64,000 nucleotides of DNA, from positions 1 through 64,000 of the forward strand of contig CAIKWZ010000040.1 in the NCBI GenBank assembly GCA_903831255.1, given 5' to 3'. The stretch is from an uncultured Alphaproteobacteria bacterium. GTDB lineage: Bacteria; Pseudomonadota; Alphaproteobacteria; Caulobacterales; Hyphomonadaceae. Positions within the stretch are counted from its first letter, which is position 1. Each line of letters starts with the position of its first letter. The translations under genes were made by a program, and so were the position numbers. Below are positions 4,190-31,669 of the stretch, one piece after another. Under the pieces are notes generated by a model. The model ran no database searches, was not told where the DNA came from, and saw nothing but the letters and a program-made list of their open reading frames with translations.

Positions 4190-5170
4190 CTATTGCTTCG
4201 GCTTCCACTCTGCAGAGAGACGCTGCGCCTCTGCGATCTGCTCGGGCGTCATCGTCTTGCGAATAATTTCCTTGTTTTCAGCGGCCTGTTTGTCGCCCTG
4301 AGCCGCGGCAAGGTTCCACCACTTGAAGGCCTCAACTGAATTCTCAGGAACGCCTCGTCCGGTTCCATACATGAAGCCGAGTTTTAACTGCGCGCCGGCA
4401 TTACCTTGCTCTGCCGCAAGCCGGTACCACTTCACCGCCTCGGCATCATTCTTCGGAACGCCTCCTCCGTCGTAGTACATAACGCCGAGGTTGTATTGCG
4501 CATAGGCAATACCTTGCCCCGCAGCCAGGCGGTACCATTTCACCGCCTCGGCATCATTCTCAGGAACGCCTTCTCCGTTCGCATACATGAAGCCGAGGTT
4601 CACTTGGGCGGGGGCGTAACCTTGTTCCGCCGCAAGCCGGTACCACTTCACCGCCTCGGCATCGTTTTCTGGAACACCCTCTCCGTTGGCGTATCTGAGG
4701 CCGAGGTTGTACTGCGCGTCGGCAAGGCCTTGTTCTGCAGCCAGACGGTACCATTTCACAGCCTCCACATCGCTTTCCGGAACGCCCTCTCCTGTGGCGT
4801 ACATAACGCCGAGGCTGAATTGCGCGTCGGCATCGCCTTGTTCAGCGGCGAGGCGGAACCACTTAATCGCCTCAGAATCGTTCTCAGGAACGCCTTCTCC
4901 GTTGGCGTACATACTGGCTAGCCAATATTGCCCAGGGGCGTATCCCTGTTCGGCAGCTAGACGGAACCATCGCACCGCCTCAACATCGTTTTCCGGAACG
5001 CCCTTTCCCTTGCTGTACCACATGCCGAGGAGGACTTGCTCGAAGGCAAGGCCTTGCTCCGCCCGCTTCTGAATTCGCTGAAAGGATGTCATCTCCTGCG
5101 CATGGCCTAGCCCCGTCAAAAGGGAGCCCACGGCGATGATCGCCAACCCACGTCTTGCAACTCCGCTCAT
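4190..5170 (-). CDS. Secreted Sel1-like repeat protein
   Basis: 326 residues from the ATG at 5170, chosen because GGGGGAAAGC lies just upstream; an ATG at 5182 lacks a site. A signal peptide (MSGVARRGLAIIAVGSLLTG, cleavage near GHAQ) precedes seven tandem 36-residue Sel1/TPR-like units with the pattern AQ.NLG.MYANGEGVPEND.EAVKWYRLAAEQG, then a short tail. The units are so alike that the DNA shows a 108-bp periodicity. Sel1 proteins are alpha/alpha solenoid scaffolds for protein-protein contacts in the periplasm or at the host interface. It lies in the integrative element downstream of the small DUF5681-linked genes and is a probable cargo gene. The binding partner is unknown. Confidence 0.88.
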   Translation of the reverse strand: MSGVARRGLAIIAVGSLLTGLGHAQEMTSFQRIQKRAEQGLAFEQVLLGMWYSKGKGVPENDVEAVRWFRLAAEQGYAPGQYWLASMYANGEGVPENDSEAIKWFRLAAEQGDADAQFSLGVMYATGEGVPESDVEAVKWYRLAAEQGLADAQYNLGLRYANGEGVPENDAEAVKWYRLAAEQGYAPAQVNLGFMYANGEGVPENDAEAVKWYRLAAGQGIAYAQYNLGVMYYDGGGVPKNDAEAVKWYRLAAEQGNAGAQLKLGFMYGTGRGVPENSVEAFKWWNLAAAQGDKQAAENKEIIRKTMTPEQIAEAQRLSAEWKPKQ

Positions 5171-5220
5171 GCTTTCCCCCATCAGCCCGGTAGGAAGCTA
5201 GCAGTGAAAGAGACTGCGCA

Positions 5221-6357: not shown

Positions 6358-6491
6358 ACCCGCAACACCGCAACATTGTATTATTTTCAATGGCTTACGC
6401 CAGCTTTCAACCCGCAACACCGCTTCACTTGTTGCGGGTCAAAAGATATCCTAACTACCTGATTTCATTCGTTTGTTGCGGTGTTGCGGGT
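6358..6491. repeat. Cluster of GTTGCGG-type inverted and direct repeats
   Basis: An 18-bp arm ACCCGCAACACCGCAACA at 6358-6375 is matched exactly in inverted form at 6474-6491, inside the last codons of the DUF3631 gene. Between them, 14 bases of the same unit recur directly at 6410-6423, and ACCCGCAAC/GTTGCGGGT (6410-6418 and 6431-6439) forms a 9-bp hairpin. The inner hairpin could end transcription of the DUF3631 gene; the outer arms could form a cruciform or bind a protein. Confidence 0.7.
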
Positions 6492-7792
6492 TGTTCAGGG
6501 GTGTCCTCGTCGAGGTATCGCTCCCACGCCTGTTCGAAGGCCTCGCGGCGATATGCTTTTCTGACTCCAAAGCCACCCAGGCGGACGTCCCGCGAGCGAA
6601 TTCCGAACGGGCGCAGAAGGCGGGCGAGATTCACGGGACTGATCGGCTTCTCCGACTTTCCAAACGCCGCCCAAGGCCCGCCATCGTCCAGGGCGAGGGC
6701 CTCGCATAGGTCAAGGCTTGTGATCTCAGCCCTCGTGTACTCGGCGAAGATTCTGCGAATGTCGCGCAAAAGAGCAGTGCGCGTGGAATCCTGCTCTCCG
6801 TCCTCGACCGCTCCAAGGGTCAGCACGCGGCATGCGGTCCTCGCGCGATCAGGCCAACCTTCGCCGGCGGCGTCGGCTATCGCCAGAAGCGGCCGCCAGT
6901 TGTCCGCTGCGCGATCGTTCAGAAAAGCTGGCGCCTCGGGGTCGGCGTTCGTAAGCCGCTCCTTGACGTCTTGCACCCAGCGAGCCGCACGGCGCCGGAG
7001 GCTGAGGAATTGATCCGGCCTATCGCCGCGCAGCCGTTCAAAGGACTCGTCTCGCGCCTTCCGCTGCATACGAATTATGATCGACCTGTCTTCGAGGGTT
7101 TCTGCGATGCGCCCAATGCTGGCGAGCGCGACGGGGGTCCAGGTGGAGAAGCGCCGCGGTTCGTGTTCGTCGCCATCGCACCGGATGGCGCACCCGTCTC
7201 GGGCGTGGCCCGAGTTGACGACGTTCCTAATGTCCTCGTTCGCGGTTCCGAAGCTGTCGAATTCGTCCAGTAGGAGCGTCGGCCGTTCGGCCTCAACCAC
7301 TCGGAAAAGAGAGGCCGCCGAAATATTCGCCGCGATAAGCGGCCGCCGCGTAAGAAATCCCAAAATGCGAAGGAGCGTCGATTTTCCGCAGCGCTTTTCA
7401 GGCGAGCGGATCGACAGGCGGGGCGAGATAAAGAAGGCCTCGAAAGCGAAGGTATGCAGGACCCAGAGCGCGAGCGAGTCTGCCGCGCCCTCTGGCAGCG
7501 AGAGGAATCGCCGGAATGTTGCCGCGATATCGTCCAGAAGTGCGGCACCGTCGACATCCTCGCCCCAAGGCTCGACCTCGGTGAACGTGAAACCGGGGCG
7601 CCCATGTTCCTCGCTGTGGGACCGGGGCCGCGCTTTCCTCACCGCTTCGTCTAGGGTCGCGACGCGAACGCCGAGACGCTGCGCCTCCTGCGCTCGCATA
7701 GTGTCGTAAACGAGCGGAGCGAGCGCGGCCAGGCGCCGGATCTCTGTTTCCAAATCAATCGGATTTTCGGGCTGGAGCGGCGCATCAAACAT
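6455..7792 (-). CDS. DUF3631 P-loop ATPase (primase/helicase-associated type)
   Basis: About 445 residues from ATG 7792, which has GGTGGGGG upstream; its start overlaps the end of the previous gene by 8 bases. A P-loop (RSPEKRCGKSTLLRILG) is followed by a Walker B-like segment (RPTLLLDEFDSFG) and an arginine-rich C-terminal helical half matching DUF3631. Such domains are found in mobile elements, often fused to or replacing the helicase part of a primase-helicase. Here no Toprim or primase domain is fused, so the protein is the bare ATPase. The element context and nearby iteron array suggest it drives element replication after excision; this is inference. The 3' end runs through one arm of an inverted repeat. 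Confidence 0.8.
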   Translation of the reverse strand: MFDAPLQPENPIDLETEIRRLAALAPLVYDTMRAQEAQRLGVRVATLDEAVRKARPRSHSEEHGRPGFTFTEVEPWGEDVDGAALLDDIAATFRRFLSLPEGAADSLALWVLHTFAFEAFFISPRLSIRSPEKRCGKSTLLRILGFLTRRPLIAANISAASLFRVVEAERPTLLLDEFDSFGTANEDIRNVVNSGHARDGCAIRCDGDEHEPRRFSTWTPVALASIGRIAETLEDRSIIIRMQRKARDESFERLRGDRPDQFLSLRRRAARWVQDVKERLTNADPEAPAFLNDRAADNWRPLLAIADAAGEGWPDRARTACRVLTLGAVEDGEQDSTRTALLRDIRRIFAEYTRAEITSLDLCEALALDDGGPWAAFGKSEKPISPVNLARLLRPFGIRSRDVRLGGFGVRKAYRREAFEQAWERYLDEDTPEQPATPQQTNEIR

Positions 7793-8111
7793 CTGGAAGA
7801 TACCCCCACCAGTCCGCCGGGTCGTTCGTGCCTGCAATCAAGCCCTTGGCGATGACTTCGGAGGCCTCTCCGACGCCGAGGGCGGCCAGCAGGCCAGTTC
7901 GCTGAGCGCAGGCGAACAGCTCGGCGAAGGCCACCGCTTCGTCCAGGGCTCCGCTCGCCACCAGTCCGCCTGCGTTTCTGGCCACAGCCCAAAGTGCCGC
8001 CTCGAAATCCGGCTCGAAACTCCATCCCGCCGCGGCCTCTGCGTCATCACGAGCGGAGACAAGGGCATGAGCAAGATATCCGCACGCGAACGCCCGAAGG
8101 TTCGGTGTCAT
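7785..8111 (-). CDS. Small helical hypothetical protein between AlpA and DUF3631 genes
   Basis: 108 residues from ATG 8111. The stop of the AlpA-like gene (8115-8113) is one base upstream, so the two are translationally coupled, and its 3' end overlaps the DUF3631 gene by 8 bases. The protein is acidic and Ala/Leu/Gly-rich (FEAALWAVARNAGGLVASGA), probably all-helical, and ends DWWGYLPDV. No family was recognised. Position suggests it serves with the replication ATPase, perhaps as a loader or regulator; there is no direct evidence. Confidence 0.55.
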   Translation of the reverse strand: MTPNLRAFACGYLAHALVSARDDAEAAAGWSFEPDFEAALWAVARNAGGLVASGALDEAVAFAELFACAQRTGLLAALGVGEASEVIAKGLIAGTNDPADWWGYLPDV

Positions 8112-9276: not shown

Positions 9277-10533
9277 CTAGCTTATCATGCCCCGGATCGG
9301 CGTCACGTTATGACCTTCGGCGGCTTGGCCCTCGGTGACGTATCGCGCCCAGTCGGCCATCATTCGCCTGCGTTTTTCGAGGAGGTCGCCGCGACGATAC
9401 GCGGCCTCAGTCTTACTCCCCACCGCATGGGCGAGGGCCATTTCGCCGACTTCCCACGAATAAGCCGTCATCTCGCCAGACCAATCCCGCAGCGTGCTGC
9501 GAAAGCCGTGCTGGGTCGCGATACCTTTAAACCCCATCCTGTGCATGTGAGCGCTGAGAGTTGCATCGGAGAGTTGTCGTCCGAACTTCAGATCGCTCCC
9601 GAACACGAGCCCTTCGTGACCGTGGGCGGTGAGACGTTCGCGCAGGATCTTCAGGGCTGGCGCCGAGAGGGGAACACGGTGCTCTCTTCCCGACTTCGTG
9701 CGGGTTCCGGGCACGGTCCAGAGCTCCGCCTCAAAACCAATCTCGGACCATGTCGCGCCGCGAACCTCGCCCGAACGGGCGCCCGTCAAAATAGCGAAGC
9801 GCAGAGCCTCGGCCCCGGCGCCCTCCCGCTCCTGCAGAGCGCGCCAGAACTCAGCGGCCTGTCTGAATGGAAGCGCCGGGTGATGTTTAGGCTGTATCCG
9901 TATGCGAGGCAGGGCGTGGGCGAGGTTTCCTTTGAGGGCCGCCGGATTAGCGCCTTGGGGTCGGTGACCGCGCGCCACCGCCCAATCAAGAACCGCCTCG
10001 ATGCGCTGGCGAACGCGCCGGGCGGTCTCCGGCTTGTGCGTCCAGATCGGGTCCAGCACGCCGAGAACGGCCTTCGTGTCGATTTCAGCGATCGGGGAGG
10101 GACATAAGGCGGCGGCATAATCGAACAGAGACTTGCGCCATTGAGCCCGGTGCTTGGCGTTTTTCCACTGAGTGTCATGCTGAGAAAGGTAGGCCTCCGC
10201 CGCCTGTGCAAAGGTCAAGGACGCCGGCGCGACCGGGGCCGCGGGCCTCCCTTTCGACGTGCGGAGCTCCGCCAGCAGATCGCCGCCGGCCTTGGCCTTG
10301 GCGCGGAACTCAGCGCAGCGCTTGCGGGCCTCGGCCAGCGTCACCCGGTCAGCCGAGCCAAGCCCCAGCTCGCGGCGCTTACCATCGACGGTGACGCGAC
10401 ATAACCAGGACCGGCGCGGCTCACCGTCCGTGCCTGTCGTGATCTGAAGAATGAGCCCGCCTCCGTCGGTGTAGTAACCCGCGCGCCGGATCTTCAAACT
10501 GGCGGCCGTCAGCTTGTTGATTGCTCTGCCCAT
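9277..10533 (-). CDS. Tyrosine site-specific integrase (tRNA-targeting, DUF4102 type)
   Basis: About 418 residues from ATG 10533 (GGTAGGGAA upstream). An N-terminal arm-binding DUF4102 domain (LTAASLKIRRAGYYTDGGGL; RSWLCRVTVDGKRRELGLG) is followed by a SAM-like core-binding region and the catalytic domain. Catalytic residues can be seen: Arg in LTGARSGEVRG, HGFR in QHGFRSTLRDW, a His in LAHAVGS and the nucleophile Tyr in TEAAYRRGD. It looks intact. The gene points away from tRNA-Ser(UGA), with its 5' end 166 bases from the tRNA 3' end, the usual arrangement for integrases that use a tRNA gene as attB. Confidence 0.95.
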   Translation of the reverse strand: MGRAINKLTAASLKIRRAGYYTDGGGLILQITTGTDGEPRRSWLCRVTVDGKRRELGLGSADRVTLAEARKRCAEFRAKAKAGGDLLAELRTSKGRPAAPVAPASLTFAQAAEAYLSQHDTQWKNAKHRAQWRKSLFDYAAALCPSPIAEIDTKAVLGVLDPIWTHKPETARRVRQRIEAVLDWAVARGHRPQGANPAALKGNLAHALPRIRIQPKHHPALPFRQAAEFWRALQEREGAGAEALRFAILTGARSGEVRGATWSEIGFEAELWTVPGTRTKSGREHRVPLSAPALKILRERLTAHGHEGLVFGSDLKFGRQLSDATLSAHMHRMGFKGIATQHGFRSTLRDWSGEMTAYSWEVGEMALAHAVGSKTEAAYRRGDLLEKRRRMMADWARYVTEGQAAEGHNVTPIRGMIS

Positions 10534-10699
10534 TTCCCTACCCACGAACGGCGGGGTTTTTCCTACCACCCCCCTACCACCCTAACTAGCTCCGATCGGG
10601 GACGAAACCAAGCGAACTAGGGCGGACTGAGAAAAGATAGAAGCGGTTTGATTTAATGTTATTTTTGCGAATTTCTGCGAACCGGCTCGAACTGCCACG

Positions 10700-10750
10700 T
10701 GGCGGAAGGGGTGGGATTCGAACCCACGGTGGGCTTTCACCCACGCTGGT
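10700..10750. other. Probable attachment site in the tRNA-Ser 3' part
   Basis: The integrase gene lies immediately beyond the 3' end of the tRNA, and the tRNA is complete, as expected when an element integrates at a tRNA 3' end and restores it. The exact crossover cannot be placed because no second copy of this sequence was seen in the window. Confidence 0.5.
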
Positions 10751-10789
10751 TTTCAAGACCAGTGCCTTAAACCGCTCGGCCACCCTTCC
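10700..10789 (-). tRNA. tRNA-Ser(UGA)
   Basis: A 90-nt class II tRNA on the minus strand. The acceptor stem GGAAGGG pairs with CCCTTCC, the anticodon loop CTTGAAA gives anticodon UGA (10755-10753), there is a long variable arm (GTGGGTGAAAGCCCAC), the T loop reads GGTTCGAATCC and the 3' CCA is encoded. The integrase next to its 3' end marks it as the probable integration target. Confidence 0.97.
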
Positions 10790-18800: not shown

Positions 18801-19577
18801 ATGCTCTTCGACACCCACGTCAATCTTCACGGCGAGGCCTTCGCCAGCGATCTCGACGCGGTCCTCGATCGCGCCCGCTCAGCGGGCGTCGGACGGTTTG
18901 TCGCCATCTGCGATAAGCTGGCGAGCGTTCCGTCCGTCCAGGCGATCGCAGAGGCTCATGGCGATATCTGGTGCAGCGTCGGAGTTCATCCCCATCACGC
19001 CAAGGACCATACCGATCTGGAAACGAAGACCCTTCTTGAGGCGTCCGCGCATCCTCGAGTATGCGCCATCGGCGAGACCGGCCTTGATCAGCATTACGGA
19101 TACAGCGACATCTCGCTTCAGGAGCGCTCCTTCTGCGTGCACATCGAAGCGGCGCGCGAAGCGGATCTGCCGCTCGTGATCCACGCTCGTGAGGCCGATG
19201 ATCTTGCAGGCGACATTCTCGAGCGTGAGTATGCGCGCGCCCCGTTTCGGTTTCTGATGCACTGCTATACGGGCGGCGCGCGACTGGCGGCCCGGGCCCT
19301 TGATCTCGGAGGGATCTTTTCGGTGTCCGGGATCTACTCCTTCCGGGCTGCGCACGACGTCCGGGACGTGATGCGAGCTGTTCCACCGGAGAGGATCATC
19401 CTCGAAACTGATTGTCCCTACCTGGCGCCGGTTCCTCACCGCGGACGTCGCAACGAGCCAGCTTATCTTGTCGACGTCTGCCGCGCCTTTGCAGCGGATC
19501 GCGGATTATCCTTTGACGAGGCGGCGGGAATGACGACACGGACAGCGCTCTCATTTTTCAGCCGGGTGACGCCATGA
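18801..19577 (+). CDS. tatD: TatD family metal-dependent hydrolase
   Basis: 258 residues, TIM-barrel amidohydrolase. Conserved pieces: GVHPHHAKDH, AIGETGLDQHY, VIHAREA, MHCYTGG and ETDCPYLAP. The first metal motif, usually DxHxH, reads DTHVNLH, with Asn8 where the second His is expected. The rest of the site is intact, so activity with altered metal binding is likely rather than loss. TatD proteins act as 3'-5' exonucleases or deoxyribonucleases in DNA repair and quality control. The stop overlaps the next gene (ATGA). Confidence 0.93.
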   Translation: MLFDTHVNLHGEAFASDLDAVLDRARSAGVGRFVAICDKLASVPSVQAIAEAHGDIWCSVGVHPHHAKDHTDLETKTLLEASAHPRVCAIGETGLDQHYGYSDISLQERSFCVHIEAAREADLPLVIHAREADDLAGDILEREYARAPFRFLMHCYTGGARLAARALDLGGIFSVSGIYSFRAAHDVRDVMRAVPPERIILETDCPYLAPVPHRGRRNEPAYLVDVCRAFAADRGLSFDEAAGMTTRTALSFFSRVTP

Positions 19578-20380
19578 CGACCGCCCTGAGGGTCAGGATC
19601 CTGGGGTGCGGATCATCCGGCGGCGTGCCGCGCGTCGGAAACGACTGGGGCGCCTGCGATCCGGCCGAACCGCGCAACCGGCGCACGAGATGCTCGATCC
19701 TTCTGAGCCGCAACGTCGCCGCGAGCGGGCAGGCGACGACCGTCCTGATCGACACCTCTCCCGACCTTCGCGAGCAGCTCCTCGCCGCGCGCTGCGATCG
19801 CCTCGATGCGGTGGCGCTGACCCACGAACATGCCGATCAGTGCCACGGGATCGATGACCTTCGCGCGCTCGCCATACGCCATCGCAAACGCATCCCGATG
19901 TTCATGGACCAGCCGACGGCCGCCATTATCACGCGCCGGTTTGATTACTGTTTCAGCGGTCAGGGCCCCTATCCGGCGATTTTTGACCCGAGAATTGAGC
20001 TGACGCCGGGGCAGGGCCTGGAAATTGCAGGGCCCGGGGGAGCGATCAGCCTGCTGCCGCTGGACCAGGACCATGGCGGCTCCCGCTCGCTGGGCTTCAG
20101 GGTCGGATCGTTCGCCTATTGCAACGATGTGGTGCGCCTGCCGGAGGAGACCCTCGAACGCCTCGGCGGTCTCGACACCCTGGTGGTCGATGCGCTGCGC
20201 TACCAGGTCCATCCGACCCACGCCCACCTTGAGCAGGCTCTGGCCTGGATCGACCGCCTGAAGCCGCGCCGGGCCGTGCTGACCAACATGCATGTGGATC
20301 TGGACTATCGAACGCTCCTGGCCGAGCTGCCGGCCGGCGTCGAGCCTGCGTATGACGGTCTGGAGCTCGACATCCCATGA
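19574..20380 (+). CDS. MBL-fold metal-dependent hydrolase (PhnP-like)
   Basis: 268 residues of metallo-beta-lactamase fold. It begins with GCGSSGGVPRVGNDWGAC, typical of the PhnP-like group, and has the metal motif THEHADQCHGIDDL, further histidines (LDQDHGG; HPTHAHLEQAL) and DTSPDLREQL. PhnP-type enzymes cleave phosphodiesters, but the member beside tatD in alphaproteobacteria has no settled substrate. It overlaps tatD by four bases and ends the plus-strand operon that starts near rlpA. Confidence 0.92.
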   Translation: MTTALRVRILGCGSSGGVPRVGNDWGACDPAEPRNRRTRCSILLSRNVAASGQATTVLIDTSPDLREQLLAARCDRLDAVALTHEHADQCHGIDDLRALAIRHRKRIPMFMDQPTAAIITRRFDYCFSGQGPYPAIFDPRIELTPGQGLEIAGPGGAISLLPLDQDHGGSRSLGFRVGSFAYCNDVVRLPEETLERLGGLDTLVVDALRYQVHPTHAHLEQALAWIDRLKPRRAVLTNMHVDLDYRTLLAELPAGVEPAYDGLELDIP

Positions 20381-20448
20381 CCGCCTGTCCCGGCCCCGCT
20401 CTCTTGCCTACCTCCCTGAAAGAAGGGGGGAATCGGGACTATAGCATA

Positions 20449-20476
20449 ATTTCCCATAATGTAGATTATGCGACTT
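20449..20476 (+). other. Candidate dif site (XerC/XerD chromosome dimer resolution)
   Basis: A 28-bp site with the 11-6-11 layout: left arm ATTTCCCATAA (20449-20459), spacer TGTAGA (20460-20465), right arm TTATGCGACTT (20466-20476). The inner CATAA/TTATG half-sites match the E. coli site exactly, and the spacer differs at one base (TGTATA in E. coli); 19 of 28 positions agree overall. It lies in the gap before mazG, close to where plus-strand genes from the left meet a minus-strand block from 21381 on, as expected where the replichores end. Confidence 0.7.
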
Positions 20477-20492
20477 TTGTATGGAGCCGCGT

Positions 20493-21362
20493 ATGACAGG
20501 CCCGGTCGATCCGCAGTCGCCGTCGGACCGGACGGACGGTCCCGGCCCCGCTCCCCTTCCCCGCACCGGTCGTCCGTTTGAGGACCTGGTCGAGCTGATG
20601 GCGCGCCTGCGGACGCCGGGATCGGGTTGTCCCTGGGACCTTGAGCAGACCTTCGAGACAATCTCGCGCCACACGATTGAGGAAGCCTATGAGGTTGCCG
20701 ACGCGATTTCCCGGCGGGACATGGCGGATCTTCGCGGTGAGCTGGGTGATCTGCTCTTCCAGACGATCTTTCACTCGAGGATGGCTGAGGAAGCCGGCGC
20801 GTTTTCCATTGGCGACGTCATAGCGGGCCTCGTGGACAAGATGGAGGCCCGGCATCCGCATGTCTTCGGCGATGCGCGTATTGAGAGCGCCGATGATCAG
20901 ACGAGCGCCTGGGAGGCGATGAAGGCCGCCGAGCGGGCCTCCCGTCGGCAGACCGGGGCGCTTGACGGTGTCGCTCTGGGGCTTCCGGCGCTCATGAGAG
21001 CGGAGAAGCTGGCGAAGCGAGCCGCTCGCGTAGGGTTCGACTGGCCGGACGCCGCTCAGGTGCTGGACAAGCTTGATGAGGAGGTCGCTGAGTTGAAGGA
21101 GGCGGCAGGCCTCGAGCGTCCGGATCCTGCTCATGTGGCTGAGGAGCTCGGCGATATATTGTTCGTGATCGCCAATCTCTGCCGGAAGCTGGGTGTCGAT
21201 GCGGAGGGAGCGCTGCGCGGCGCAAATGACAAGTTCACGCGACGTTTCAGCGGCATGGAGGCGCTGGCTGAGGTGTCGGGACGTCGCTTCGAGGATCTGA
21301 CCCTCGCGGAACAGGAGGCTCTCTGGACGCAGGTGAAGGTCCAGGAGCGCAGCTCTCGCTGA
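20493..21362 (+). CDS. mazG: Nucleoside triphosphate pyrophosphohydrolase MazG
   Basis: 289 residues from ATG 20493 with GGAG six bases upstream (an ATG at 20481 is less well placed). Two MazG domains are present. The first begins LVELMARLRTPGSGCPWD and has the metal-binding helices HTIEEAYEVADAI and LRGELGDLLFQ; the second has LDEEVAELKEA and HVAEELGDILFV. MazG hydrolyses non-canonical and excess nucleoside triphosphates to monophosphates and pyrophosphate. The first codons lie only 16 bases from the dif-like site, so its promoter must overlap that site or lie upstream of it. Convergent with hflX. Confidence 0.96.
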   Translation: MTGPVDPQSPSDRTDGPGPAPLPRTGRPFEDLVELMARLRTPGSGCPWDLEQTFETISRHTIEEAYEVADAISRRDMADLRGELGDLLFQTIFHSRMAEEAGAFSIGDVIAGLVDKMEARHPHVFGDARIESADDQTSAWEAMKAAERASRRQTGALDGVALGLPALMRAEKLAKRAARVGFDWPDAAQVLDKLDEEVAELKEAAGLERPDPAHVAEELGDILFVIANLCRKLGVDAEGALRGANDKFTRRFSGMEALAEVSGRRFEDLTLAEQEALWTQVKVQERSSR

Positions 21363-21366
21363 ACTC

Positions 21367-21386
21367 ACCTGAAATCCTCTTCAGGT
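21367..21386. terminator. Bidirectional terminator between mazG and hflX
   Basis: ACCTGAA-ATCCTC-TTCAGGT, a perfect 7-bp stem with a 6-base loop, spans the 18-base gap between two convergent genes and includes the hflX stop codon. Placement suggests it stops transcription from both sides. Confidence 0.6.
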
Positions 21387-22694
21387 CCGGATGACCGCGT
21401 CGGGTGAGATCCCGTTCAGTCGCTCGATGTCGGTCTCGCTCATGAAGGCGATGAGTTCGAGCTCTCCGTCCTCGGACAGGCGTTCGGACGAGATCTCACA
21501 ATGGCTGTGAAGCCAGGCGCGGCCCCGGCCGTCATGGGGTTGGAGGCGTATGGTCCGCATGGACCGGCCGGCGAACAGCATCGCCTCCGCCTCGTACAGC
21601 GCTTTCGCCAGGCCATCTCCTGTCAGCGCCGAGGCGAGGACCGCTTTGGGAGAATGGTGGGCGGCCCGTTCCTGGAGCTGATCGCGTGAGGCCGGATCAA
21701 GCGCGTCCGCCTTGTTCCACACCTCAAGGATCGGCGGTCGGTCGATCCCTGTCTCGGCCGCCAGCTGATCCAGGATTGAGTAGACGTCTTCGGCCTGCAC
21801 GTTTGTATCCGGATGGGAGATGTCTCGGACATGGATCAGCAGCCCTGCCTCCATCGCCTCCTCGAGCGTCGCCCTGAAGGCGGCGACAAGATGGGTCGGC
21901 AGATCTGTGATGAACCCCACCGTATCGATGAGAGCGATCGGGCGGCCCGACGCGCCGAGGATCTCGCGCGAGGTCGGATCAAGGGTCGCGAACGGCATGT
22001 CGGCGGCCAGCACGTCCGATGAGGTCAGTCGATTGAACAGCGTGGACTTGCCAGCGTTGGTGTAGCCCACCAGCGCCGCCACCGGCGCCCCGCGACGGGC
22101 GCGTCCCTCTCGCTGAAGCTTTCGGGTCCGCCGGACATCCTCAAGATCACGACGGAACCCTGCAATGCGCTTGTCGAGCATTCTGCGGTCCGCTTCGAGC
22201 TGCGTCTCTCCCGGGCCGCCCAGGAAGCCGAAGCCCCCTCTCTGGCGCTCCAGGTGGGTCCAGGTGCGGACCAGTCTGGATCGCTCATACAGAGAGCGAG
22301 CCATCTCCACCTGCAATCGACCCTCAGCCGTGCGGGCCCGAAGCCCGAAGATCTCAAGGATCAGCCCGGTGCGGTCGACCACCTTGCGTTTGATCTCACG
22401 TTCCAGATTGCGCTGCTGAACAGGCGTCAGAGCGCCGTCCACCACAAGCAGCGTCGCGCCCGTCTCGTCCATTCTCTGGCAGATCGTATCGAGCTGTCCC
22501 TGTCCGAACAGACGAGCCGGATGCGGCTCCCGGATTGTCACGCGTTCAGAAAAGGCCAGTCGGACCCCGAGCGCCTCCGTCAGGCCCTCGCTTTCCTGCA
22601 GCCGCGAACTGGCAAGCCGCGTCCCTCCGATGACCGGAAGCACCACGGCGGCGCACTCCTCCGCCGGTCTCCTGTCTATGAGGTCACGTACCAT
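21381..22694 (-). CDS. hflX: Ribosome-associated GTPase HflX
   Basis: 437 residues. An N-terminal HflX domain with the conserved Arg-rich coiled coil (ERQRGGFGFLGGPGETQLEA) precedes the GTPase domain: G1 GYTNAGKSTLF, G3 DTVGFI, G4 NKAD. HflX binds the 50S subunit and rescues or splits stalled ribosomes under stress. It lies 68 bases downstream of hfq on the same strand, the classic hfq-hflX order. Confidence 0.97.
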   Translation of the reverse strand: MVRDLIDRRPAEECAAVVLPVIGGTRLASSRLQESEGLTEALGVRLAFSERVTIREPHPARLFGQGQLDTICQRMDETGATLLVVDGALTPVQQRNLEREIKRKVVDRTGLILEIFGLRARTAEGRLQVEMARSLYERSRLVRTWTHLERQRGGFGFLGGPGETQLEADRRMLDKRIAGFRRDLEDVRRTRKLQREGRARRGAPVAALVGYTNAGKSTLFNRLTSSDVLAADMPFATLDPTSREILGASGRPIALIDTVGFITDLPTHLVAAFRATLEEAMEAGLLIHVRDISHPDTNVQAEDVYSILDQLAAETGIDRPPILEVWNKADALDPASRDQLQERAAHHSPKAVLASALTGDGLAKALYEAEAMLFAGRSMRTIRLQPHDGRGRAWLHSHCEISSERLSEDGELELIAFMSETDIERLNGISPDAVIRT

Positions 22695-22762: not shown

Positions 22763-23014
22763 TCAATCCTGCTCGCCATCCTGGTCTTCGAACAGATTGA
22801 CCGGCGCATTGGGAGCGATGGTTGAAATGGCGTGCTTGTAGACGAGTTGCGGCGGACGTCCCTCGCCCTTGAGCAGCACGCAGAAATTGTCAAACCACGA
22901 CACCACGCCCTGAAGTTTGACGCCGTTGACGAGGAAAACCGTAAGGGGAGTTTTGTTTTTCCGGACGGCGTTGAGGAAGATGTCCTGAAGATTTTGTTTT
23001 TTATCTGACGACAT
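22763..23014 (-). CDS. hfq: RNA chaperone Hfq
   Basis: 83 residues. Sm1 ([20 protein letters not shown] through [10 protein letters not shown]) and Sm2 ([11 protein letters not shown]) motifs are complete. Between them, KGEGRPP replaces the usual shorter RDG-type turn, a small local change. The C-terminal tail is short and acidic, as in other alphaproteobacteria. Hfq forms a hexamer that pairs small RNAs with messenger RNAs. It lies between ntrX and hflX with 168 bases upstream for its own promoter. Confidence 0.98.
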
Positions 23015-28312: not shown

Positions 28313-29403
28313 GGCGCTGATCCTGTCTTGCGTGCGAATGGAAAGAGAAGACGGAGGCAGGCCCCCGTCGGGCTGTTGTCCAGGATCACAAAGCCGCCAT
28401 GGGCGGTCATGATTTCAGAGACGACCGCGAGTCCGACGCCGGCCCCAGAGGACTTGGTGGTGTAGAACGGCTCGAAGACATGGGCGACCGCCGTCTCCGG
28501 AACGCCTGACCCGTTATCGGCGACGGAGATCTCGAGAGCTCCATTGGCCCTCGGCGTATCCCGACCTGAAAACCGGAACCCGGCCCGGTAACGGGTCGAC
28601 ACCACAATACGCGGACTCCGGGGGCCCGTTGTGGCCGCCTCCACCGCGTTCTTGATCAGATTGAGGCAGGCCTCGTGAAGATGATCGGGGTCGACTTCGA
28701 TCTCGGGCAGGGACGGGTCGAACCTCAGATCGAACTGCGCGTCGGCCCCGAAACTGGCGCGGGCCAGATCGAGGGCGCTGTTGAGTACGATATGAACGTT
28801 GGTGGAGCGCGTACGGGGCTTGAAGAAGGTTTCGAAGGCCACGAAACGGTCGACGATACGGCCGATTCGTGAGCCCTCTTCACGGATCAGAGCGAGCAGA
28901 TCCTGCTGATCGTCCCTCGCCTTGCGTGCGAGCAGCTGAGCCGCCCCGATGATGCCCGCGAGAGGGTTCTTGACCTCGTGACCAAGCATCCGCGCCACCT
29001 GCGCGACGGCCGAGACCTCTGCCGCGCTCTCCTCCTGGAGCGGGCGGCTCACCGCCAGCGACAGCACGAGACCGGCTTCCCCGTCCGGCGCAGCTGAGAG
29101 ATCGATATCCTGACCCCGGATCTGCGGACCCGAGAGCCTGAGGCCTCGGGCCGAAACGACCCCGCCTTCACGCCTCGCCCGGATGATGAAATCGAACAGG
29201 GGGCTGTCCTGGGCCACCCAGTCGCCAAGCGAGCGTCCGATCAGCAGGGGGGCGCTGCGGCCGAGGAGCGTCTCGGCGGCAGGATTTAGAAACGTGATGC
29301 GATCGCTCACGTCCAGCGCCAGAACCGCGAAGGGCATGGCGTCAAGGATCCGATAAGGGTCGGGATGGGCCGCGACGGCTGCGATTGAGGCTGAGGGTCT
29401 CAT
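28309..29403 (-). CDS. ntrB: Nitrogen sensor kinase NtrB
   Basis: 364 residues, soluble. PAS domain at about 15-125, HisKA with MLGHEVKNPLAGIIGAAQLL (active His) and HATPase with DNGSGVPE and GAGVGLAVVSEI. NtrB adds or removes phosphate on NtrC according to PII protein state. It overlaps dusB upstream by four bases and ntrC downstream by four, forming a dusB-ntrB-ntrC operon. Confidence 0.96.
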   Translation of the reverse strand: MRPSASIAAVAAHPDPYRILDAMPFAVLALDVSDRITFLNPAAETLLGRSAPLLIGRSLGDWVAQDSPLFDFIIRARREGGVVSARGLRLSGPQIRGQDIDLSAAPDGEAGLVLSLAVSRPLQEESAAEVSAVAQVARMLGHEVKNPLAGIIGAAQLLARKARDDQQDLLALIREEGSRIGRIVDRFVAFETFFKPRTRSTNVHIVLNSALDLARASFGADAQFDLRFDPSLPEIEVDPDHLHEACLNLIKNAVEAATTGPRSPRIVVSTRYRAGFRFSGRDTPRANGALEISVADNGSGVPETAVAHVFEPFYTTKSSGAGVGLAVVSEIMTAHGGFVILDNSPTGACLRLLFPFARKTGSAP

Positions 29404-30392
29404 GCTGCGAGCCTCACCTCGAAGAGGGCCGCCTCGAGAGCTTCCACAAGGTCGGCTGCGCGTTCGAGCCGGCAGAGCCCGGTGCGCGTCCCCGTATCAG
29501 CTTCCCGCCCCTCGTCCTCGCAGTATGCGTCGTAAAAGGCCGCGATGTGCTTTCGGACAACCCGGACGCCCAGTCCTTCTCCATAGAGCTCCACGCTGTC
29601 GAACACCTGCCGGATCATGGAGGCCAGCCTCTCCTGGCGCGGCGGCGCACTGAACGCCTTTCCCTCAAGGCCTGCGGCGATTTCGGCGAGCCGCCAGGGT
29701 CGGCCCAGAGCGCCGCGCCCCACCATCACCCCCGCGGCTCCCGAGCGCGCGAGGCAGATGCGGGCGGAGGCGGTGTCGAGAATATCTCCGTTGGCGATAA
29801 CGGGCAGGCTAACGGCCTCCACCGTCGCCCGGATCTTCGTCCAGTCCGCCTGACCGTCATAGAACTGGTTCCGGGTCCGGCCGTGCACGGTGATCATCGA
29901 GGCGCCTTCGCCTTCCGCTATGCGCGCCAGTTCAGGGGCGTTCAGTCGATCCTCGTCCCAGCCGAGTCTCATTTTAACCGTGACAGGCTTCGGGCTGGCG
30001 GCGACCGCCGCCGCGATGAGCTCGCGCGCAAGGCCTGGTTCCCGCATCAGGGCTGACCCGGCCTGCCCGCCCGTCACGCGTTTGGCCGGACAACCCATAT
30101 TGATGTCGATGATGTCAGCCCCAGCCGCCGCGGCCAGCTCCGCCCCCACCCGGATCCAGAGAGGTTCCCGGCCGGCGAGCTGGACAATGAACGGGCCGCC
30201 ACCCGAATGAGGAGCGGCTCGACGAACGAATTCCTCGCTCTTGCGCGCCAGCTCGGAGCCGGCCACCATCTCGGTCACGACCGCCGGGGCGTCGAAATAC
30301 GCCGCCTGCGTTCTGAACGCCGCATCTGTCACCCCCGACATGGGGGCGAGAAATACGGGCGCTGGCAAAGGGACGGCGCCAATCTGAAACAC
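29400..30392 (-). CDS. dusB: tRNA dihydrouridine synthase DusB
   Basis: 330 residues, FMN-binding TIM barrel. It starts FQIGAVPLPAPVFLAPMSGV and holds the active Cys in NMGCPAKRVTGGQAGSALM, plus HGRTRNQFYDGQADW and VMVGRGALGRPW. DusB reduces specific uridines in the D-loop of tRNAs. It heads the ntrBC operon, as in many alphaproteobacteria. Its start is 28 bases from a 17-bp palindrome shared with the divergent ispDF gene. Confidence 0.97.
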   Translation of the reverse strand: MFQIGAVPLPAPVFLAPMSGVTDAAFRTQAAYFDAPAVVTEMVAGSELARKSEEFVRRAAPHSGGGPFIVQLAGREPLWIRVGAELAAAAGADIIDINMGCPAKRVTGGQAGSALMREPGLARELIAAAVAASPKPVTVKMRLGWDEDRLNAPELARIAEGEGASMITVHGRTRNQFYDGQADWTKIRATVEAVSLPVIANGDILDTASARICLARSGAAGVMVGRGALGRPWRLAEIAAGLEGKAFSAPPRQERLASMIRQVFDSVELYGEGLGVRVVRKHIAAFYDAYCEDEGREADTGTRTGLCRLERAADLVEALEAALFEVRLAA

Positions 30393-30419
30393 ATGAACCT
30401 CACAGACTCAGTCGAGTTA

Positions 30420-30436
30420 TGCCTAATACTTAGGCA
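30420..30436. promoter_or_regulatory. Palindrome in the dusB/ispDF divergent promoter region
   Basis: TGCCTAA-TAC-TTAGGCA, a perfect 7-bp inverted repeat with a 3-base centre, lies in the only AT-rich stretch of the 89-base gap between divergent dusB-ntrBC and ispDF. Operator-like; the regulator is unknown. Confidence 0.5.
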
Positions 30437-30481
30437 ACCTAAACATAGCATACGACCAATCCCAGCCGAAAGATTTCTACC

Positions 30482-31669
30482 GTGGTCAAAAACAAGGCAA
30501 AAAGCATATCCGGCGCCTGCGGATTGATAATCGTGGCGGCCGGTGAGGGGCGCCGCATGGGCGAGGGGCCGGCCAAGCAGTATCGCGAGGTCGGCGGGAG
30601 ACCCATGCTTCTCTGGAGCGTGACGGCGGCCCTTGCCTGCCCTGCGATCGACCGGGTTGTCGTTGTGGTCCCCGCTCAGGATGAGGACTATGTCCGGGGC
30701 CTGTTGCCCGAACAACAGCGGATCAGGCTGGCTCATGGCGGCGCGATGCGAACGGATTCCGTTCGCTCCGGTCTCACTGCCCTTGCTGATCTGGACCCGG
30801 CTGCGGTGCTGATCCACGACGCTGCCCGTCCCGGTCTGACCCCGGAGGTGATCCTCGAACTGCTTGCGGCTCTGGAGGGGGCCGATGCGGCGGCCCCTGC
30901 CCTGACCCTGACCGATGCGGTCAAGGAGCTGGGCGAGGATGGACGGTTGAGGACGGTTCCCCGCGACAACTTGCGTCGCATACAGACCCCACAGGCCTTT
31001 CGTACCGAGACGCTCATCCGGGCCTTTGAACAGGCGGCGGAAGCGGCGGTCGACGACCTCGCTCTGGTGGAGGCGGCGCTGGGGCCCGATCGCGCGCGCA
31101 TCGCATTGACGCCGGGCCGCGCGGAGCTCATGAAAATTACGCATGCGGAGGATCTGGCGATCGCTGAGCGACTTCTTTCCCCGCCCCCGTTCCGTATTGG
31201 TGAGGGGTTCGACGTCCACGCCTTCGGCGAGGGCGACTTTGTCACCCTGTGCGGGGTGGCGATCCCCCATTCCCGCGGCCTCAAGGGCCACTCTGACGCC
31301 GATGCCGGATGGCACGCTCTGACGGACGCCATCCTCGGGGCGGCGGCGCTCGGGGATATCGGCGATCACTTTCCGCCCTCTGACCCGACCTGGAAAGGCG
31401 CCTCGTCCCTGATTTTCCTGACGCACGCCGTCAAGCTGGTTCAGAAAATGGGGATGGCGGTCGTCAACGCCGACATCACCCTGATGTGCGAACGACCGAA
31501 AATCGCGCCTCACCGCGAAGCGATGCGGATTGCGACCGCCGAAGCGCTGGGGGCGCCGCTCTCTTGTGTGTCGGTGAAGGCCACCACAACCGAGAAACTG
31601 GGTTTTCTGGGCCGGGAAGAAGGGATCGCGGCATCCGCGGCGGTTCTGCTTGGACCGGCTCCCATCTGA
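30482..31669 (+). CDS. ispDF: Bifunctional IspD/IspF (MEP isoprenoid pathway)
   Basis: 395 residues, GTG start at 30482. The IspD half (about 10-230) has [19 protein letters not shown] and [12 protein letters not shown]; the IspF half (about 237-395) has [10 protein letters not shown] with metal-binding Asp and His, and [15 protein letters not shown]. The two halves catalyse CTP-dependent formation of CDP-methylerythritol and cyclisation to MEcPP; the kinase IspE in between is encoded elsewhere. This fusion is typical of alpha- and epsilonproteobacteria. Divergent from dusB. Confidence 0.97.

Follow-up and report, generated by a model that had tools for sequence, protein, structure and literature searches.

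A 28-bp palindrome between two genes in a 64,000-nucleotide stretch of DNA from an uncultured alphaproteobacterium (hereafter the window) raises two questions: whether it is the chromosomal dif site, and why such a site should lie beside mazG. The first-pass annotation of the window had proposed a candidate dif site with an 11-6-11 layout, CATAA/TTATG inner arms and the spacer TGTAGA. Exactly this arrangement is present at 20449-20476, where the plus strand, read directly, is ATTTCCCATAA TGTAGA TTATGCGACTT. Its placement just upstream of mazG also holds, as the site is intergenic and occupies the gap between the end of an MBL-fold metallohydrolase gene (20380) and mazG, whose open reading frame runs from 20481. 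The site has a G+C content of 0.32 in surrounding DNA of about 0.64, and the pattern CATAA-N6-TTATG, which is its own reverse complement, has one plus-strand occurrence in the window.

Comparison with published dif sites suggests that the right arm, which is of the CGCATAA type, belongs to XerC and the left arm to XerD, so the canonical reading would be that of the minus strand. In XerC-to-XerD order, the 28-bp dif site (20449-20476, minus strand) then reads AAGTCGCATAA TCTACA TTATGGGAAAT; its designation draws on single copy, conservation and the turn in KOPS polarity described below. The predicted XerC-binding arm AAGTCGCATAA (20466-20476, minus strand) was assigned against the published sites in the accessible part of Table 1 of PMC2731167, and the predicted XerD-binding arm TTATGGGAAAT (20449-20459, minus strand) likewise by comparison with published dif sites. 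Between them lies the central hexamer TCTACA (20460-20465, minus strand), which is TCAACA in 13 congeners. On the plus strand these congeners, including the nearest (G014, MazG 90% identical), have TGTTGA where this genome has TGTAGA, a difference that points to a recent change in the predicted crossover region of this species.

For comparison with known sites we used a 2009 survey by Carnoy and Roten. Its available text (PMC2731167) characterizes dif as single copy, intergenic, low in G+C, palindromic and near the skew switch, and all of these features are clearly seen here except closeness to the skew switch. The present site shares its intergenic location and ATAA/ATTATG core with the Agrobacterium, Mesorhizobium, Rhodobacter and Magnetospirillum sites in the accessible rows of Table 1 of that survey. 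The alphaproteobacterial sites given there lie near the skew switch. Most carry TCGCATAA on the XerC side, as does the present one, whereas the outer arms and hexamer differ. The available text of the survey gives no description of the genes beside these sites. The Magnetospirillum and Bartonella sites seem to be printed in that table, as far as it is available, in reverse orientation relative to the others. Resemblance to the E. coli dif/XerCD system extends to the 28-bp length, 11-6-11 layout, palindromic inner arms, A+T richness, intergenic location and single copy, and to the CATAA/TTATG core, the presence of XerC and XerD candidates and KOPS convergence. The XerD arm, in contrast, is TTATGGGAAAT here and TTATGTTAAAT in E. 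coli, and the hexamer here is TCTACA. An E. coli-like dif pattern allowing up to three mismatches has no match in the window, so such a scan overlooks this dif.

A search for CATAATGTANATTATG with up to two mismatches on both strands of the 3,321,201-base draft genome (76 contigs; 99.99% complete by the tool's estimate) located one place, and a reversed-pattern control returned 0 matches. We also built a 28-position sequence model, R1, from 14 sites, the present one being among its 14 training rows. Its sole strong match in the genome falls at exactly 20449-20476 (31.9 bits, E 4.4e-7), and its second match (E 0.12) falls there too, on the opposite strand, so that both scans agree on a site unique in the draft genome. 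A chance palindrome is ruled out by this single occurrence together with the conservation described below.

The genome also encodes candidates for the proteins that would act at such a site. Seven integrase-family domain matches were detected, one of them below the family cut-off, and two of the seven were scanned against NCBIfam. The C3 protein scores 315 bits against XerD and 270 against XerC, and the C75 protein 285 against XerC and 230 against XerD; both fall below the NCBIfam XerC/XerD equivalog cut-offs, and each fits its expected model better. Going by the better-fitting model, we call them XerD-like and XerC-like, respectively. A single FtsK gamma domain is present in the genome. By analogy with the E. 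coli system, the right arm at 20466-20476 would be occupied by XerC and the left one at 20449-20459 by XerD. Guided by GGGNAGGG octamers that point at the site from both sides, FtsK would bring both dif copies of a chromosome dimer together at the septum and activate XerD, and strand exchange at the central hexamer would turn the dimer into two monomers.

KOPS (FtsK-orienting polar sequences, GGGNAGGG in E. coli) steer FtsK. The nearest KOPS-like octamers on either side of the site, GGGNAGGG at 20009-20016 (plus strand) on the left and its counterpart at 20554-20561 (minus strand) on the right, both point at dif, and octamer polarity turns at the site in its own contig and in six relatives. 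Plus and minus octamers in the own contig (G000) number 5/2 on the left and 2/41 on the right (Fisher 1.9e-4), both left exceptions (2457 and 10536) lying inside a tRNA-Ser element. This contig starts only 20.4 kb left of dif, about half of that being foreign DNA, and it allows two equally good change-point brackets, 20009-20554, which contains dif, and 28705-30895. The relatives offer longer tracts. Stretches of 400 kb gave 25/4 and 1/44 in the congener G013 (Fisher 1.6e-14), where polarity turns in the interval 182282-188182 and dif is at 188088, and 21/0 and 1/59 in G033 (Fisher 1.6e-18), with the turn between 2413016 and 2418185, dif at 2413141 and mazG at 2647920. Twenty sampled stretches of G019 gave 9/0 and 1/13, with a turn between 1700983 and 1745230 that includes dif (1733489) and excludes mazG (1761657). 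In the closed genome G023, also read in 20 sampled stretches, octamers point rightward before 765 kb and leftward after it with a few exceptions, and rightward again in stretches from 2.65 Mb on, past dnaA at 2.397 Mb.

Two further genomes separate dif from one or the other of its usual neighbors. In G239, dif adjoins the MBL-fold gene with mazG 145 kb off (12/1 left, 0/16 right); in G094, it adjoins mazG with the MBL-fold gene 247 kb off (31/3 left, 9/66 right). The best change-points bracket dif in G013, G033, G239 and G094. The G239 and G094 brackets each also hold all or part of the retained gene, and since these two genomes are split in opposite ways, dif is the common element of both brackets. 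Among 56 rearrangements of its letters, GGGNAGGG itself is the most convergent (195 of 205 occurrences in G000, G013 and G033); the other 55 have a median convergence of 0.69, the next best reaching 0.83. In octamer, polarity rule and turn at dif, these putative KOPS are the same as those of E. coli.

GC skew is uninformative in the own contig, where it is nearly the same on both sides of the site (-0.0232 left, -0.0226 right). Its sign changes at dif in G019 (+0.081, +0.018 in the dif stretch, then -0.051) and in G239, and about 20-45 kb from dif in G023 and G033; in G094 it is weak and mixed. Some stretches far to the right of dif in G033 have positive skew with octamer polarity kept. Similarly, at about 260001-340000 of G013:C2, some 70-150 kb right of dif, the skew is reversed and KOPS polarity unchanged. 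GC skew and KOPS can thus disagree locally, and KOPS polarity is the sharper test of the two. According to the accessible text of a 2011 study (PMC3025954), dif correlates with the skew shift-point without coinciding with it, a pattern that some of the relatives match.

Conservation of the site upstream of mazG, a further expectation of the dif reading, extends through the genus and often far beyond it. In a near-home sample of 61 genomes (our own and 60 relatives), 13 of 14 congeners carry the 16-bp core with at most one mismatch; the remaining one, G006, has a completeness of 73% and no mazG match either. In those 13, 4-80 bp separate the site from the point where the mazG match begins (the match in G002 being partial, at a contig end), and the bases beyond the 28 differ among congeners. 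R1 matches at E<=1 in 48 of the 61 genomes; this narrow model has no match at that threshold in the other 13 and only weak matches in several order-level genomes. Apart from its dif at mazG, the congener G012 has a second dif-like core, CATAATGAAGATTATG (L021, G012:C410:2706-2721), a weak match (E 0.009) that is possibly a chance occurrence or an element-borne site.

The palindrome's position immediately upstream of mazG in the 13 congeners, and often elsewhere in the class, would also suit a mazG operator or promoter element that resembles dif by accident. Within the family, however, the site lies 28 kb (G019), 45 kb (G027), 47 kb (G018), 80 kb (G028) and 235 kb (G033) from mazG, and four genomes without a mazG match (G103, G099, G153 and G204) retain it near the MBL-fold gene. 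KOPS polarity follows the site rather than mazG in G033 and G239; because it turns at the site in G033 with mazG 235 kb away, the site is not a mazG control element. We reject the operator reading, which is very improbable, on these grounds: site and mazG are apart in several relatives and polarity stays with the site. Less probable still is that a mobile element left the palindrome behind as an attachment site or a resolution site of the plasmid type. The available text of PMC2731167 notes that dif can serve the integration of foreign DNA, for example by filamentous phages, and an integrase gene lies 10 kb from the site. That integrase, however, is of the phage type with an Arm-DNA-bind_3 domain and belongs to an element beside tRNA-Ser; the draft genome has no second copy of the site that would mark an insertion, and 13 of 14 congeners share the site. 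Viral contigs, scanned once for exact matches to a single form of the dif pattern of the family, contained none. The single copy and the integrase's membership of the tRNA-Ser element led us to reject this explanation too.

The site at 20449-20476 is almost certainly the chromosomal dif of this alphaproteobacterium, with no competitive rival. Its identity rests on sequence, single copy, conservation, octamer convergence and the presence of xerC-like, xerD-like and ftsK genes, and the initial proposal is supported by its single copy, its conservation and the KOPS turn at the site.

The genes around dif are arranged in blocks. The MBL-fold metallohydrolase gene (19574-20380, plus strand) is its left neighbor, and mazG, encoding a nucleoside triphosphate pyrophosphohydrolase (20493-21362, plus strand; start codon predicted), its right neighbor; both are found in many other alphaproteobacteria. 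For mazG, the ATG at 20493, which follows GGAG, is the likelier start than the opening of the reading frame at 20481. Next on the right are hflX (21381-22694, minus strand) and hfq (22763-23014, minus strand). With our choice of genes among the listed open reading frames, plus-strand genes extend to 21362 and minus-strand genes begin at 21381. The strand-block switch that the first-pass annotation had placed near the site is therefore real, but it falls about 0.9 kb to the right of dif and is weak evidence for it. Octamer polarity suggests that the blocks are co-directional with the replication forks on both sides, mazG excepted, since it points away from dif and so would run against the fork.

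To the left, an apparent integrative element extends from position 1, where the contig begins, to about 10700 and adjoins a tRNA-Ser gene (10700-10789, minus strand). It carries genes for a ParA-like ATPase (175-1053), a Sel1-repeat protein (4190-5182), a DUF3631 protein (6455-7837) and a phage-type integrase with Arm-DNA-bind_3 and Phage_int_M domains (9277-10569). No repeat of the tRNA-Ser region of at least 12 bases, as would mark the far end of the element, occurs elsewhere in the window. The element resembles a tRNA-type insertion, and dif is not where it inserted. The suggestion that the terminus helps explain nearby insertions calls for revision, as the phage-type integrase adjoins tRNA-Ser and dif is not needed to explain the element.

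The replication terminus is often regarded as a fluid region. To follow the surroundings of dif across the class, we assembled a second, broader model, R2, from nine sites of the same order along with six published alphaproteobacterial ones, ran it on 192 genomes drawn across Alphaproteobacteria, and located mazG, HflX and the MBL-fold protein in the same set. Class counts use a dif match at E<=0.01 and a mazG match at E<=1e-30 and leave out G000, as well as second or reverse-strand readings in one genome. A dif match was obtained in 129 of the 191 other genomes and none at this threshold in 62, of which 12 have a best dif E of 0.01-0.05 and 50 no match at E<=0.05. Four genomes with a dif E of 0.01-0.05 (G106, G156, G176 and G232) carry the site upstream of mazG, at distances of 60 bp to 2.7 kb, and their omission lowers the near-mazG count; G165, with mazG and no dif match, is absent from the distance tally.

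Both dif and mazG were found in 99 genomes, on the same contig in 81 and on different contigs, where distance cannot be judged, in 18. Upstream of mazG, dif lies within 300 bp in 32 of the 99 genomes, within 3 kb in 58 and within 10 kb in 70. These 70 genomes represent 49 families and all have one relative orientation, and dif was never found within 10 kb on the opposite side of mazG. Same-contig counts favor short distances in drafts, so we give counts over all 99 and also for single-contig genomes, where dif is within 10 kb of mazG in 6 of 10 and within 17 kb in 8 of 10, the exceptions being G223 and G239. Among 80 named mazG loci, R2 at E<=0.01 has a match in 15, the best always upstream of mazG on the opposite strand, and none in 65, Brevundimonas included, with some loci ending at contig ends.

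The other neighbors recur as well. Among the matches listed, 78 of 95 same-contig genomes have an MBL-fold gene no more than 10 kb from dif on its non-mazG side, pointing at dif in all 78, and 4 others have one on the mazG side at up to 10 kb. Again among the matches listed, HflX was placed on the mazG side, no more than 10 kb from dif and directed back towards it, in 54 of 74 same-contig genomes; 1 other has it to the left of dif. With the same limit to listed matches, dif is flanked by the MBL-fold gene and mazG, each within 10 kb, in 52 of the 69 genomes that have all three on one contig, and by both within 1 kb each in 22 of those 69. In the four genomes mentioned above, which lack a mazG match at E<=1e-30, the site is centred 33-88 bp from where the MBL-fold gene ends. 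That the address recurs is firmly established for the genomes with a dif match.

What keeps this address is a separate matter. We lean towards the reading that dif in Alphaproteobacteria has a fixed ancestral address at the MBL-fold/mazG junction, followed by hflX. On this view the KOPS pivot would hold dif and its immediate neighbors in place, which is why 49 sampled families retain the address and the terminus is conserved at its very centre. The likeliest reason would be selection against any break that parts dif from the point where octamer polarity pivots. Insertions beside dif would be tolerated, its distances from its neighbors ranging from 8 bp to tens of kb, and under this combination the neighbors would be carried along. 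Persistence of the address may also reflect gene order that has simply stayed put. Class-wide linkage would follow, too, if dif and MazG were functionally tied, for instance through terminus-linked dosage or expression rather than neighbor carriage, and the 70 of 99 genomes within 10 kb, all in one orientation, speak for such a tie. Against it, by the 10 kb rule on the same contig and among the matches listed, dif stays with the MBL-fold gene only in 8 genomes and with mazG only in 6. Several of these splits are mere stretching to 11-19 kb, and a 20 kb rule leaves 4 and 2, small numbers that show no preference for mazG. The four genomes that keep dif beside the MBL-fold gene without a mazG match likewise count against such a tie, which we consider unlikely.

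The recurring address bears on how dif surroundings have been described. According to the available text of the 2009 survey (PMC2731167), dif has no specific genetic environment, whereas in the alphaproteobacterial genomes sampled here that environment is often the same. Flanking genes vary at the Legionella site in the accessible part of PMC9765430. Linkage of mazG and dif was not found in the open-access papers surveyed, including the available portions of PMC7901474, PMC9765430 and PMC5993296, and open-access matches for mazG with the replication terminus were phage papers only.

As a dif site, then, the palindrome is ordinary, and the new part is its recurring address, which qualifies the published view of a dif without a specific genetic environment. 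In a 76-contig draft whose GC skew could not reveal it, the site shows where the replication terminus of this uncultured alphaproteobacterium lies, and the MBL-fold/mazG junction should often allow dif, and hence the terminus, to be found in draft alphaproteobacterial genomes. If it is true that selection on the FtsK/KOPS pivot keeps the address, the junction would give direct access to the constraints that chromosome segregation puts on gene order.
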